64,000 nt of DNA from an uncultured Pelagibacteraceae bacterium (GTDB taxonomy: Bacteria; Pseudomonadota; Alphaproteobacteria; Pelagibacterales; Pelagibacteraceae), in NCBI GenBank assembly GCA_902546795.1, contig CACCLK010000001.1, positions 20,095 to 84,094 on the forward strand, written 5' to 3'. Numbering within the stretch: position 1 is the stretch's first letter; each line of letters starts with the position of its first letter. Both the position numbers and the translations under genes were made by a program. Below, piece after piece: positions 781 through 50,174 of the stretch. The notes beneath the pieces were generated by a model that worked only from the letters and a program-made list of their open reading frames with translations, did not search any database and had not been told where the DNA came from.

Positions 781-2184
781 ATGGAAAATAATTTTGATGT
801 TATCGTTATAGGTGGTGGCCCTGGAGGATACGTATGTGCTATCAGATCTTCTCAATTAGGTTTGAAAACCGCATGTGTTGAAAGCAGAGGAACATTGGGG
901 GGCACTTGTTTAAACGTTGGATGCATACCCTCGAAAAGTTTGCTGAACCTTTCAGAAAATTATCACAAAGCTAAAAAAGACTTTAAAAATCAAGGAATAG
1001 AAATAAGTGATATCAAATTGAATATTGATAAAATGATGCAAAACAAAGCCAAATCTGTTCAAGTCCTTACTAAAGGAGTAGAATTTCTTTTAAAAAAAAA
1101 CAAGGTCTCTTATTTAAGAGGTAAGGGAGTAATATTTTCTCCTAATGATGTAGTAGTTTATGACGGAAGTGATAAAAAATCGTATAAAACAAAAAACATT
1201 GTTATAGCTACTGGCTCTGCTCCTTTAACTTTGCCCGGCATAGATATTGATGAAAAAAATATTTTATCCTCAACTGGAGCATTATCACTTAACAAAGTGC
1301 CTAAGTCCCTCGCGATAATTGGGGGAGGTTACATAGGCCTTGAAATGGGTTCAGTCTGGTCAAGATTAGGCACTGAGGTAACAGTTATCGAATACTTGGA
1401 TCATATTACACCTGGAATGGATAGAGAAATTTCAAAAGAATTCCAAAAGATATTAACAAAGCAAGGAATTAAATTTAAACTTAATAATAAAGTAAAAAGT
1501 GTTATATCATCTTCTCAGGGATCAACCATAGTATTTGAGGACAATAATTCTAAAAAAGAAGAAAAACTTATTGCAGACAAAGTTTTATTATCAGTCGGAA
1601 GAAAGCCTTATACTGAGGGTTTAAATCTTTCAAAAATAGGGGTTAAAAAAGATTCTAAAGGTAGAGTTGAAGTAAATGAAAAATTACAAACAAGCGTAAA
1701 AAATATTTTTGCAATTGGTGATGTTATCAAGGGACCAATGCTGGCGCATAAAGCTGAGGAGGAAGGTATTGCGGTCGCGGAGATACTCGCTGGTCAAGCA
1801 GGGCATGTAAATTATGATGTTATTCCAGGGGTAATTTACACTGCACCTGAAGTTGCATCTGTGGGGAAAACAGAAGAAGAACTGAAGTCACAAAAAATAA
1901 ATTATAAAGTGGGTAAATTTCCTTTTATTGCAAACTCAAGAGCAAAAGTGAATAATGAAACCGAAGGATTTGTAAAAATTCTCGCTAACGCGGAAACTGA
2001 TAAAGTTCTCGGAGTTCATATTATTGGTCCTCACAGCGGTGACATGATTGCTGAAATGGCTTTAGCAATGGAATTTGGTGCTAGTTCTGAAGATATAGCT
2101 AGAACTTGTCACGCTCACCCAACACACACAGAGGCAATCAAAGAAGCTGCTTTAGCTGTTGATAAAAGACCAATTCATTTTTAA
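781..2184 (+). CDS. lpdA: Dihydrolipoyl dehydrogenase (E3)
   Basis: Flavoprotein that reoxidises dihydrolipoyl groups with NAD+; as the only E3 in the window it could serve both the oxoglutarate and the pyruvate complexes. It has an N-terminal FAD-binding glycine motif (VIGGGPGG, about residues 9-16), the redox-active pair in GGTCLNVGCIPSK (Cys43/Cys48), a second nucleotide-binding glycine motif (IIGGGYIG, near residue 180) and the C-terminal catalytic His-Glu segment HAHPTHTEA. At 467 residues it has the usual family length. No lipoyl domain is fused to it, unlike some betaproteobacterial E3 proteins. It starts 2 bases after the E2 stop, so the two are almost certainly co-transcribed. Confidence 0.97.
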   Translation: MENNFDVIVIGGGPGGYVCAIRSSQLGLKTACVESRGTLGGTCLNVGCIPSKSLLNLSENYHKAKKDFKNQGIEISDIKLNIDKMMQNKAKSVQVLTKGVEFLLKKNKVSYLRGKGVIFSPNDVVVYDGSDKKSYKTKNIVIATGSAPLTLPGIDIDEKNILSSTGALSLNKVPKSLAIIGGGYIGLEMGSVWSRLGTEVTVIEYLDHITPGMDREISKEFQKILTKQGIKFKLNNKVKSVISSSQGSTIVFEDNNSKKEEKLIADKVLLSVGRKPYTEGLNLSKIGVKKDSKGRVEVNEKLQTSVKNIFAIGDVIKGPMLAHKAEEEGIAVAEILAGQAGHVNYDVIPGVIYTAPEVASVGKTEEELKSQKINYKVGKFPFIANSRAKVNNETEGFVKILANAETDKVLGVHIIGPHSGDMIAEMALAMEFGASSEDIARTCHAHPTHTEAIKEAALAVDKRPIHF

Positions 2185-41335: not shown

Positions 41336-42583
41336 TTAAACAGCAAGTTTAAAAGCAAAATCTTTTCCAAGACTTTGAGACAAATGAACACAAAATCTAG
41401 CACCCTCAGCCCCATCTATAATTCTATGATCATAAGATAATGAAATCGGCAATATCTTTCTTGATAGATATTTTCCGTCTTGAAATACAATTTTATCAAA
41501 TACCTTACCAACTCCTAAAATAGCAACTTCAGGTGGGTTTATAATTGGAGTAAAAAAATTTCCTCCTATTCCGCCTAAACTTGAGATGGTCATTGATCCA
41601 CCAAAAAATTCCTTTTTATCAATTTTTAAATCTCTACATAACTTACTTACTCTCCTTAACTCATTTGAAATCTTTTTAATTGACATTTTCTCTACATCTC
41701 TAATTTTAGGTACCATCAAACCATGAGGCGTATCTACTGCAAAGCCTATATGATAATATTTTTTGAAAGTAATTTTGTTAGTTTCTGTATCAATTGAACA
41801 ATTAAAATTTGGATAAGTTTGTAAAGCTTTTACTAAAGCTCTAGTTATGAATGCTAAAGGTGTAATAGCAACCTTCTCACCAGTATAAACATCTCTTAAT
41901 GATTTTCTGAAAATTTCCATTTCAGTAATATCAATTTCATCGTGCTGAGTAACGTGAGGTATCTCAGTCCAAGATCTAACAAGTTGAGGTCCGGAAAGCC
42001 TTTTTACTCTTGGAATATCTTTAATTTCTATTTCACCGAATTCTGAGTGATCGTACTCATCTTTGTATTTCGTCTTATTTATTTGACCTTCTCCAGATGA
42101 TGAAAGTTTTGATTTAATATGTTTCTTCACATCTTCTACTGTTACTCTCCCTAATCTTTCAGTCCCAGCTATTTGAAAAATGTCCGCTCCCATTTCTCTC
42201 GCAAATTTTCTTATTTTTGGACTTGCAGATTTTACTGCGCCCTCAACACTTTTAACTTTTTGTTGAGCGGTGCTAATTTTTTTTTCTGGGATTTCTTTAT
42301 TTTCTGTTTCCTTGCTTGCACTGGTTTTTATTTCTGATTTTTTTTGACCAACTTCTAGTGACAAAATTAAATCACCTTTATTTACTTTGTCTCCGACTTT
42401 TACATCAATATTTTTAATTACTCCATTATGAGTAGATGGAACTTCTACACTGGATTTATCGCTTTCAAGAGTGATCAAAGAATCATTCTTTTTTATATTT
42501 TGACCAGACTTTACAAGAACTTCTATAATTTCAACATCTTTGAAATCACCTAAATCTGGAACTAAAATTTTCTCAATCGACAT
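41336..42583 (-). CDS. aceF: Pyruvate dehydrogenase E2 (dihydrolipoyl acetyltransferase)
   Basis: E2 core of the pyruvate dehydrogenase complex, 415 residues. It carries one lipoyl domain (residues 1-77, lipoyl lysine in ESDKSSVEV), a linker, a peripheral subunit-binding domain (about 118-156, SPKIRKFAREMGADI) and the acetyltransferase domain with [12 protein letters not shown]. The lipoyl domain is strikingly similar to the one fused to the E1 protein at 47139. This E2 style (VPDLGDFKDVE) resembles beta/gammaproteobacterial AceF. It begins 21 bases after tRNA-Arg, which leaves no room for its own promoter and shows no Shine-Dalgarno sequence. Confidence 0.93.
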   Translation of the reverse strand: MSIEKILVPDLGDFKDVEIIEVLVKSGQNIKKNDSLITLESDKSSVEVPSTHNGVIKNIDVKVGDKVNKGDLILSLEVGQKKSEIKTSASKETENKEIPEKKISTAQQKVKSVEGAVKSASPKIRKFAREMGADIFQIAGTERLGRVTVEDVKKHIKSKLSSSGEGQINKTKYKDEYDHSEFGEIEIKDIPRVKRLSGPQLVRSWTEIPHVTQHDEIDITEMEIFRKSLRDVYTGEKVAITPLAFITRALVKALQTYPNFNCSIDTETNKITFKKYYHIGFAVDTPHGLMVPKIRDVEKMSIKKISNELRRVSKLCRDLKIDKKEFFGGSMTISSLGGIGGNFFTPIINPPEVAILGVGKVFDKIVFQDGKYLSRKILPISLSYDHRIIDGAEGARFCVHLSQSLGKDFAFKLAV

Positions 42584-47138: not shown

Positions 47139-50100
47139 ATGGCTCAAAACATATCAGTTCCAGATATCGGTGACTTTAAAGACGTAGAGGTAATAGAAAT
47201 TTTAGTAAAGCCAGGTGATCAAATAAAAAAGAATGATCCGATCGTCACTATAGAAAGTGACAAATCAAGTGTTGAAATCCCATCACCATCGGAGGGGCAA
47301 ATAAAAGATTTGAAAGTTAAAATTGGTGACAAAGTTTCAGAAGGAAGTATTTTAGCCACAATAGAAAATGGCCAGGCAGCAAACAATCAGACAATTGTTC
47401 AAAAAGAAAAGCCAAAGAAAATTATAGAGCCAAAAAAAACTGATGATACTGTAAAAAGGAATGGAAATCTTAGTAACGGTGCATCAGTTAAACAAGTCAA
47501 AAAAGTATTTGCTGAGCCGGCATCAAAAGATGATATTGATCCTTTAGAAACAAATGAATGGATTGACTCATTAAATTCTGTAATAGAAAATGATGGGGCA
47601 TCAAGGGCGAGCTATTTACTAAATAAAGTTATAGATCAAGCTTACAAAGCTGGACTCGTGTTACCTGATACAAGAACCACTCCGTACATAAATACAATAC
47701 CACCAGAGGCTGAAGCAAAGTCGACAGGGGACCAAAACATAGAGAAAAAAATAAGAGCTTATATTAGATGGAATGCTGCCGCCATGGTGGTTAAAGCAAA
47801 TAAAAAAAGTTCAGAACTAGGAGGGCATATTGGGACTTTTGCATCAGCAGCAACTTTATATGATATCGGAATGAATCATTTTTGGAGAGCTAAAACAAAT
47901 AAGTTTGGTGGGGATCTAGTTTATTTTCAAGGCCATTCAGCACCCGGAATGTATGCAAGGGCGTTTTTGGAGGGAAGAATGACATCTAAACAGCTTGATG
48001 GTTTTAGGCAGGAAGTAAATAAAGGTGGATTATCTTCTTACCCTCATCCCTGGTTGATGCCAAACTTCTGGCAGTTTCCAACCGTCTCAATGGGCTTGGG
48101 TCCAATCATGGCAATCTACCAAGCTAGGTTTTTAAAATACTTAATTAATAGAGGTTTAATAAAAGATCAGGGAAGAAAAATATGGGTATTTCTTGGTGAT
48201 GGAGAGATGGATGAACCTGAGTCTTTAGGAGCCATAGGATTAGCTGCGCGTGAAAAATTAGATAATTTAATATTTGTCATTAATTGCAACCTTCAAAGGT
48301 TAGATGGTCCAGTAAGAGGTAATGGAAAAATTATTCAAGAATTAGAAGGAAGCTTTAGAGGAACTGGTTGGAATGTAATCAAGGTGATATGGGGATCATA
48401 TTGGGATAAACTTTTAATGAAGGATAAAACGGGACTTCTAATAAAAAGAATGAACGAATGCGTGGATGGAGAATATCAGGCCTTTAAGGCAAAAGGTGGT
48501 GCATATGTTCGAGAAAAGTTTTTTGGAAAGTACGAAGATCTGAAAGATTTAGTCTCAACAATGACGGATCAGGATATTTGGAAATTGAATAGAGGTGGAC
48601 ACGATCCACATAAAGTGTACGCAGCCTATCACGCTGCAATGCAACACAAAGGTTCCCCAACTGTTATATTAGCTAAAACAATCAAAGGTTATGGTATGGG
48701 AAAATCTGGTGAAAGTATAAACACAACACATCAACAAAAAAAACTTGATGAACAAGATCTTCTTTACTACAGAGACAGGTTTGATGTCCCTCTAACTGAT
48801 AAGCAAGTCAAGAATATTGAATATTATAAACCGAGCGAAAATTCAGAAGAAATAAAATATCTCAAAGACAGAAGAGCAAAACTTGGTGGATTTATTCCTG
48901 AAAGATCCTCATTCGCAAAACCAATAAAATCTCCACCAAAAGATATCTTCGATAGTTTTATGAAATCAACTGGTGACAAAGAGATGTCAACAACAATGGC
49001 TTTAGTAAGAATGCTTACAGCGTTATTAAGGGATAAAAATGTTTCACCAAGATTGGTCCCGATTATTCCAGATGAGGCTAGAACTTTTGGTATGGAGGGA
49101 TTTTTCCAAAAAATAGGTATATACGCACATGAGGGCCAAAAATATGAGCCTGTGGACTCGGAGCAGCTGAGTTCTTACAGAGAGGATAAAAGTGGTCAAG
49201 TTTTAGAAGAAGGTATTACAGAGTCAGGCGCGATGTCTTCATGGATAGCCGCTGGAACTGCATATACAAATCATGATTTGGAAATGATACCAATTTATAT
49301 TTTTTATTCAATGTTTGGATTTCAAAGGGTCGGTGATTTAGCTTGGGCCGCGGGTGACTCCCAAGCGAGAGGATTCTTGATTGGAGCAACTGCAGGGCGA
49401 ACAACCTTAGCAGGTGAAGGATTACAACACCAAGATGGACATAGTCATTTATTAGCCTCAAATATTCCAAACTGTGTAAGTTATGACCCAACTTTCTCTT
49501 ATGAAATGGCTGTTATTTTAAGAGATGGAATTAAAAGGATGCATGAAAAAAAAGAGAATATTTTTTATTACATTACAGCAATGAATGAAAATTACTCTCA
49601 CCCAGAAAAACCAAAAGGATCAGATGAAGGAATTCTTAAAGGTATGTATTTATTTAAAGAGTTTAAAAATAAAGGAAAAGTTAAGGTTCAGCTATTAGGC
49701 TCGGGAACTATTTTGAGAGAGATTATTTCAGCCGCAAAAACTTTATCAGAAGAATTTGGAGTGGACTCAGACATCTGGAGCGTAACAAGTTTTAATGAAT
49801 TGAGGAAAGATGGTATGGAAACTGAACGTTGGAATCTGCTACACCCTGAAGAAAAAAGTAAAAAATCATTTGTTCAGAAATGTTTAGAAAGTCGAGATGG
49901 ACCAGTGATAGCTGCATCAGATTATGTAAGATCATTTTCTGATCAGTTAAGACCATACGTACAGAAACCTTTTTATTCGTTTGGTACCGATGGCTATGGC
50001 AGAAGTGATACAAGAAAAAATTTAAGAAAGTTTTTTGAGGTAGACAAAGAGCACATTGTAGCTTACACATTAAGTGCTCTTTCAAGAGAGCAATTAATCG

Positions 50101-50174
50101 AGAGTAAAAAAGCCGAAAAAGCATTGAAAAAATATAAGATAGATCCAAATAAACTATTTCCGCCTAAATTATAA
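47139..50174 (+). CDS. aceE: Pyruvate dehydrogenase E1 (homodimeric type) with fused N-terminal lipoyl domain
   Basis: Thiamine diphosphate enzyme that decarboxylates pyruvate and acetylates lipoyl groups. Residues 1-77 form a complete lipoyl domain (VPDIGDFKDVEVIEILVK, lysine in ESDKSSVEI), followed by a charged linker of about 50 residues. The E1 part, about 885 residues, then starts DPLETNEWIDSLNSVIE and runs like E. coli AceE: QGHSAPGMYARAFLEGR, FLGDGEMDEPES, NCNLQRLDGPVRGNGKI, HQDGHSHL. With 1011 residues it exceeds a plain AceE by one domain. The lipoyl part matches that of the E2 at 41336 in about 45 of 74 positions by eye. Lipoyl domains normally sit on E2. Confidence 0.95.
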   Translation: MAQNISVPDIGDFKDVEVIEILVKPGDQIKKNDPIVTIESDKSSVEIPSPSEGQIKDLKVKIGDKVSEGSILATIENGQAANNQTIVQKEKPKKIIEPKKTDDTVKRNGNLSNGASVKQVKKVFAEPASKDDIDPLETNEWIDSLNSVIENDGASRASYLLNKVIDQAYKAGLVLPDTRTTPYINTIPPEAEAKSTGDQNIEKKIRAYIRWNAAAMVVKANKKSSELGGHIGTFASAATLYDIGMNHFWRAKTNKFGGDLVYFQGHSAPGMYARAFLEGRMTSKQLDGFRQEVNKGGLSSYPHPWLMPNFWQFPTVSMGLGPIMAIYQARFLKYLINRGLIKDQGRKIWVFLGDGEMDEPESLGAIGLAAREKLDNLIFVINCNLQRLDGPVRGNGKIIQELEGSFRGTGWNVIKVIWGSYWDKLLMKDKTGLLIKRMNECVDGEYQAFKAKGGAYVREKFFGKYEDLKDLVSTMTDQDIWKLNRGGHDPHKVYAAYHAAMQHKGSPTVILAKTIKGYGMGKSGESINTTHQQKKLDEQDLLYYRDRFDVPLTDKQVKNIEYYKPSENSEEIKYLKDRRAKLGGFIPERSSFAKPIKSPPKDIFDSFMKSTGDKEMSTTMALVRMLTALLRDKNVSPRLVPIIPDEARTFGMEGFFQKIGIYAHEGQKYEPVDSEQLSSYREDKSGQVLEEGITESGAMSSWIAAGTAYTNHDLEMIPIYIFYSMFGFQRVGDLAWAAGDSQARGFLIGATAGRTTLAGEGLQHQDGHSHLLASNIPNCVSYDPTFSYEMAVILRDGIKRMHEKKENIFYYITAMNENYSHPEKPKGSDEGILKGMYLFKEFKNKGKVKVQLLGSGTILREIISAAKTLSEEFGVDSDIWSVTSFNELRKDGMETERWNLLHPEEKSKKSFVQKCLESRDGPVIAASDYVRSFSDQLRPYVQKPFYSFGTDGYGRSDTRKNLRKFFEVDKEHIVAYTLSALSREQLIESKKAEKALKKYKIDPNKLFPPKL

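Follow-up and report, generated by a model that had tools for sequence, protein, structure and literature searches.

In the textbook pyruvate dehydrogenase (PDH) complex the swinging lipoyl arm is tethered to the E2 core, so that the arm stays concentrated there and many active sites are coupled. A typical E2 has one to three lipoyl domains at its N-terminus (PMC6270654). The E. coli AceE/AceF complex (PMC8421416, PMC6270654; PDB 1l8a, 4qoy and 9h1n) has the same type of E1 as SAR11 bacteria, with the same docking segment and catalytic residues, but its E1 lacks a lipoyl domain and its E2 has three, whereas in SAR11 a lipoyl domain is found on E1.

There are precedents for lipoyl domains outside E2. 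The heterotetrameric PDH of Zymomonas mobilis has one at the N-terminus of E1-beta (PdhB), as reported in a 1999 FEMS Microbiol Lett paper cited in PMC7873978 (where the text says alpha, whereas the title of the cited paper says E1-beta). As in SAR11, the domain is N-terminal on E1 and present besides that of E2, but the Zymomonas-type E1 is an alpha2beta2 enzyme, whereas the SAR11 E1 is a homodimeric AceE with an AceF-like domain and its E2 can be lipoyl-less. According to the same source, the domain is on E3 (PdhD) in Mycoplasma hyopneumoniae (Matic et al. 2003), again a subunit other than E2 but not the one used in SAR11, and the lineages and enzyme types are separate. The source also cites E3 proteins with a lipoyl domain from Neisseria (p64k, PDB 1gjx) and Alcaligenes eutrophus. 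These resemble the SAR11 E1 in placing an extra lipoyl domain on a peripheral enzyme, although that enzyme is E3 rather than E1. Actinobacterial OdhA/KGD (PMC10415282) shares with SAR11 a lipoyl-less acyltransferase domain served by an arm from another polypeptide. However, OdhA is an E1o-E2o fusion that takes its arm from the AceF of another complex, whereas the SAR11 arm is on the E1 of the same complex. Short E2 proteins also exist elsewhere, as seen from the NCBIfam model PRK11857 (308 positions).

A sequence-only reading of the locus described here had placed lipoyl domains on E2 and, in some bacteria, on E3. The Neisseria and A. eutrophus proteins bear this out, but the E1-beta proteins (Zymomonas; NCBIfam NF008854) make the list incomplete. 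In the literature searched, with subscription journals mostly outside its coverage, neither lipoyl-AceE fusions nor SAR11 E2 proteins devoid of a lipoyl domain turned up, and lipoyl goes unmentioned in a paper on SAR11 genomes in which aceE copies are discussed (PMC10030771). The combination of a lipoyl-homodimeric AceE fusion with a lipoyl-less E2 appears to be unreported there.

An AceE protein with its own lipoyl domain

The window (the whole stretch of 64,000 nucleotides analysed, from an uncultured Pelagibacteraceae bacterium) contains the PDH genes listed in Table 1. The aceE ORF starts with ATG, has no internal stops and encodes in one frame a lipoyl domain (Pfam Biotin_lipoyl, residues 4-75, E = 3e-20), a linker of ~50 residues and a complete E1 (NCBIfam TIGR00759, residues 129-1008, 1438 bits against a curated cut-off of 859.9). 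The N-terminal part has the Biotin_lipoyl fold, and its lysine is at the hairpin turn within a DKx motif. AlphaFold2 (AF2) gave pLDDT blocks of 70-88 for residues 1-77, in a full-length model made from a shallow alignment in which the lipoyl domain is the only confident part and the E1 core is poor. Over 81 columns, Foldseek placed the modelled N-terminal part within 1.9-2.0 A of two solved lipoyl domains, 1gjx and 1qjo; the former, from Neisseria p64k, was the best of the structural matches to lipoyl domains.

Table 1 Features of the PDH genes in the window
Feature	Position	Strand	Basis
aceE fusion gene: lipoyl domain, linker and homodimeric-type E1, 1011 aa	47139..50174	+	ORF, Pfam, NCBIfam; kept in 80/80 Pelagibacteraceae contigs
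Lipoyl domain of AceE, residues 1-77	47139..47369	+	Pfam Biotin_lipoyl, AF2, Foldseek
Lys42 codon, predicted lipoylation site in ESDKSSVEI	47262..47264	+	K in 88/88 aligned E1-borne domains
Lys/Glu-rich linker of AceE, residues 78-128	47370..47522	+	AF2 pLDDT about 25; dN/dS 0.18
E1 core of AceE, residues 129-1011	47523..50171	+	TIGR00759 1438 bits; alignment to 1l8a
aceF, E2: one lipoyl domain (about 42353-42583), subunit-binding domain, catalytic domain	41336..42583	-	Domain matches; synteny
lpd, E3 dihydrolipoyl dehydrogenase without lipoyl domain	781..2184	+	TIGR01350 588.9 bits, residues 4-467
Inverted block: tRNA-Arg, thiolase, HDAC-like, acetoacetyl-CoA synthetase, aceE	42605..50174		Gene order in relatives

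Of 81 aligned positions, 46 (57%) are the same in the E1-borne and E2-borne lipoyl domains of the window, which agrees with the roughly 45 of 74 counted by eye in the sequence-only reading. That reading had also recognized a complete lipoyl domain ahead of a full E1 and the lipoyl lysine, and both observations held. An assembly or reading-frame error is ruled out as the cause of the fusion, since it recurs in each of the 80 Pelagibacteraceae contigs retrieved, which were assembled independently and match the query from the lipoyl domain into E1. The lipoyl domain on AceE is thus confirmed as real and as part of one intact ORF.

The remainder of the protein is a regular AceE. Residues H531 and E695 align with H407 and E571 of E. 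coli AceE, which we take to be catalytic residues, and are invariant in 22 aligned sequences. The core aligns with E. coli E1 (1l8a) at 1134 bits, and the full-length TIGR00759 match is accompanied by the catalytic His/Glu equivalents. Residues 131-173 align with the N-terminal segment of E. coli E1, including the E1 peptide (9h1n_C) that PDB 9h1n holds together with an E2 subunit-binding domain. NMR had assigned E2 binding to this N-terminal region of the E. coli protein (PMC6270654). As the docking segment is kept, the SAR11 E1 should dock on E2 in the normal way.

The window E2 also keeps a complete lipoyl domain with its lysine. In relatives the gene order is tRNA-Arg, thiolase, HDAC, acetoacetyl-CoA synthetase, aceE, aceF, DMT transporter and thioesterase (single genes went undetected in some), with tRNA-Arg on the thiolase side. 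Relative to seven of them (L270, L005, L032, L010, L052, L013 and L051) the window genome has the genes from tRNA-Arg through aceE inverted, which left aceF on the other side and strand from aceE. Because the inverted block explains the separation, and the window aceF adjoins the same DMT transporter and thioesterase genes as the aceF of relatives, it is the true syntenic partner of aceE, parted from it by a local inversion. No inverted repeat was found within either breakpoint region, and the only clear match between the two is a 14-bp direct one; in this genome (61% complete, 27 contigs) the inversion is possibly real and possibly an amplification chimera. The lpd gene follows sucB, whose start falls just outside the window (sucB lipoyl match at C1:19592). 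The aceF genes of the window genome and of G919 (L270) form a divergent pair, with about 77% identity or less to other g1 aceF in the catalytic part, whereas their aceE genes are about 86-90% identical to those of g1 relatives. This suggests recombination or fast change of aceF.

The fusion is a fixed trait of Pelagibacteraceae

In a survey of the order, the lead AceE copies of Pelagibacteraceae were open frames of 998-1133 residues, and the lipoyl domain was present in every adequately covered one. A purpose-built lipoyl HMM found the domain upstream of E1 in 97 of 97 SAR11 frames; the 52 frames that lacked it were all from other Pseudomonadota. Surveys of the class, the phylum and the gammaproteobacteria, covering Pseudomonadota, gave no lipoyl domain in >200 AceE frames from outside Pelagibacteraceae. 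The listed frames longer than about 955 residues from outside the family were found with the lipoyl HMM to be open upstream read-through, and a Paraburkholderia plasmid match that covered the query was a piece of aceE followed by aceF. The E1-borne domain is therefore a fixed trait of the family and no oddity of the window genome. The view that such an E1 fusion is unusual stands among AceE proteins of Pseudomonadota, but not within Pelagibacteraceae, and E1-beta offers a precedent.

No loss of the domain from a lead AceE was seen in Pelagibacteraceae. In the one apparent exception, L243 (genome G918), an indel in the poly-A tract of the linker puts the lipoyl domain in a separate frame immediately upstream, which rules out loss. 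Tandem pairs of N-terminal lipoyl domains were found on AceE of L102 and L171 (g2) and of L277 and L204 (g5).

The E1-borne domain resembles those of AceF

In a tree of lipoyl domains, which has few columns and modest support, the E1-borne SAR11 domains cluster with their AceF counterparts and are distant from SucB, in keeping with the likeness to E2 noted from the sequence alone. The E1-borne domain scored 92.7 bits with an AceF model and 20.6 bits with the E1-beta model NF008854 (cut-off 454), the latter over the lipoyl region only. The window E1 is thus of the TIGR00759 homodimeric type and not an alpha2beta2 E1-beta enzyme. An origin from SucB or E1-beta lipoyl domains is supported by neither the tree nor the model scores. 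The g3 E1-borne domains sit among the E2-borne ones in this tree, and given this placement an exchange of lipoyl domains between aceE and aceF is possible.

E2 proteins without a lipoyl domain

Most Pelagibacteraceae have aceF directly behind aceE, with one lipoyl domain. However, 33 non-redundant loci from six or more genus-level groups encode an E2 of ~300 residues that has the subunit-binding and catalytic domains and no N-terminal lipoyl domain, a state of the relatives that the sequence-only reading had missed. In these proteins the subunit-binding domain (ASPKVRKFAREL...) comes first, the frame starting a few bases from the aceE stop, and the catalytic motif DHRxxDG is intact. For L092, L013 and L094, Pfam returned E3_binding (PF02817) and 2-oxoacid_dh (PF00198) only. 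Among 247 family genomes surveyed, short E2 frames occurred in g1, g3, g6, g415, g416, g418, g419, g420 and g421. The strong Biotin_lipoyl matches in 14 genomes with a lipoyl-less E2 (2 of them 97-99% complete) were to AceE, SucB-sized and BCCP-sized proteins only; a weak match in G056 (L237) was by eye an HlyD-like protein rather than an extra arm. The 14 include G918, with its AceE domain in a separate frame. As the 14 genomes have no other strong lipoyl/biotinyl match, the only arm left to the complex is that on E1.

The genomes in question often come from single cells or metagenomes, and the short E2 could in principle be an artefact of assembly or gene calling, with the domain encoded elsewhere. 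We consider this very improbable, as the state recurs over all of these loci and groups, the distance from the aceE stop leaves no room for a domain, and no further lipoyl protein was found in the 14 genomes, the two nearly complete ones included. The E2 proteins of L085, L086 and L204 have two lipoyl domains, of which the second carries Glu where the lipoyl lysine would be and is a degenerate arm. The mean AceE linker is 51 residues where E2 is lipoyl-less versus 39 where E2 keeps its domain; the difference was not significant after phylogenetic pairing (five independent pairs, median p 0.25), so that linker length as an adaptation to the state of E2 is a trend only.

The AceE proteins of the family form a single clade in the E1-core tree (support 100). 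The presence of the lipoyl domain on E2 requires at least 7 changes on this tree and at least 8 on the E2 tree. A single loss for all lipoyl-less E2 loci was rejected by an AU test on the E1 tree (p 9e-34), as was a single loss within g1 (p 0.015), whereas one within g3 was not (p 0.105). In the lipoyl tree the domains that g1 and g6 carry on E2 cluster with other E2-borne ones and not with the E1-borne domain of their own genome. For this reason several independent losses from E2 are favoured over regain, a reading for which tree support is moderate and g3 is ambiguous. Fewer losses may suffice if aceF has moved between lineages.

The E1-borne domain as a probable working arm

The lipoyl lysine is conserved in every aligned E1-borne domain (Table 1). 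Pooled pairwise dN/dS, from simple Nei-Gojobori counts on close pairs, came to 0.071 in the E1-borne and 0.080 in the E2-borne lipoyl domain, against 0.030 in the E1 core; the linker, at 0.181, was the most relaxed segment of AceE. These ratios indicate that the E1-borne domain is under purifying selection. LipB was found in 11 and LipA in 10 of 12 genomes checked, some of them incomplete. Given the invariant lysine, the purifying selection, the encoded LipA and LipB and the retention of the domain where E2 lost its own, the E1-borne domain is most likely a working arm.

The domain might instead be a vestigial or structural copy that is never lipoylated, with E2 doing all the work. In the window the E1 copy could indeed be redundant, as E2 has a complete lipoyl domain with its lysine. 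However, we give this little credence: the lysine is invariant, dN/dS is about 0.07, and the domain was lost from E2 in several lineages and from E1 in none seen. What a decaying copy looks like is given by the second E2 domain of L085, L086 and L204, in which the lysine is gone. It is equally doubtful that complexes with a lipoyl-less E2 borrow a lipoyl group in trans from SucB (or GcvH) and that the E1 arm is regulatory. Such genomes do encode a SucB-sized protein whose lipoyl domain is intact, and actinobacterial OdhA, which borrows from AceF, is a precedent (PMC10415282), but the E1-borne domain is AceF-type and far from SucB, and if SucB served the complex there would be no reason to keep and constrain a domain on E1.

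We therefore prefer, with a probability of roughly 0.88, the reading that AceE of Pelagibacteraceae has a functional N-terminal lipoyl domain, a copy of the AceF type that would predate the diversification of the family and would be the sole arm where E2 lost its own. LipB and LipA would lipoylate Lys42, and the N-terminal segment of E1 would bind the E2 subunit-binding domain as usual. By means of the disordered linker the arm would reach an E1 active site, be it on its own chain, as the sequence-only reading had proposed, on the dimer partner or on a neighbouring subunit, for reductive acetylation, after which the acetyl group would be passed to CoA at the E2 core and the arm re-oxidised at E3. 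Lipoylation of Lys42 and the assembly and activity of the complex are inferred from sequence. Where E2 has a lipoyl domain, as in the window, the E1 arm would add to the E2 arm; where E2 has none, it would replace it. In several SAR11 lineages the only swinging arm has thus very probably been handed from E2 to E1, the arm of each E1 chain serving E1, E2 and E3.

SAR11 bacteria, which rank with the ocean's most abundant cells, offer a natural series of PDH complexes: some have an arm on both E2 and E1, some have two on E1, and in some E1 is the only carrier. The series can test whether active-site coupling needs an E2-tethered arm and whether one arm per E1 suffices, and can show how a domain is relocated in a central metabolic machine. 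It also bears on annotation, in which a short E2 would otherwise be taken for a truncated or inactive protein.

The sister family and second AceE paralogues

No AceE above the cut-off was found in sister family f2 in the survey of the order. The f2 Biotin_lipoyl matches (G002, G004, G006, G010 and G018) were to SucB-, BCCP- and carboxylase-sized proteins only, with no third lipoyl E2. This family may lack an AceE-type PDH complex altogether.

Multiple aceE copies have been noted in SAR11 IIIa (PMC10030771). A minority of Pelagibacteraceae genomes encode a second AceE paralogue of 887-902 residues, and the four examined (L212 6742-9414 on the minus strand, L211, L213 and L214) have neither a lipoyl domain nor an E2 nearby. 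This paralogue scores equally with TIGR00759 and TIGR03186, and in L212 it adjoins, by eye, a branched-chain-type ABC transporter and oxidoreductases.
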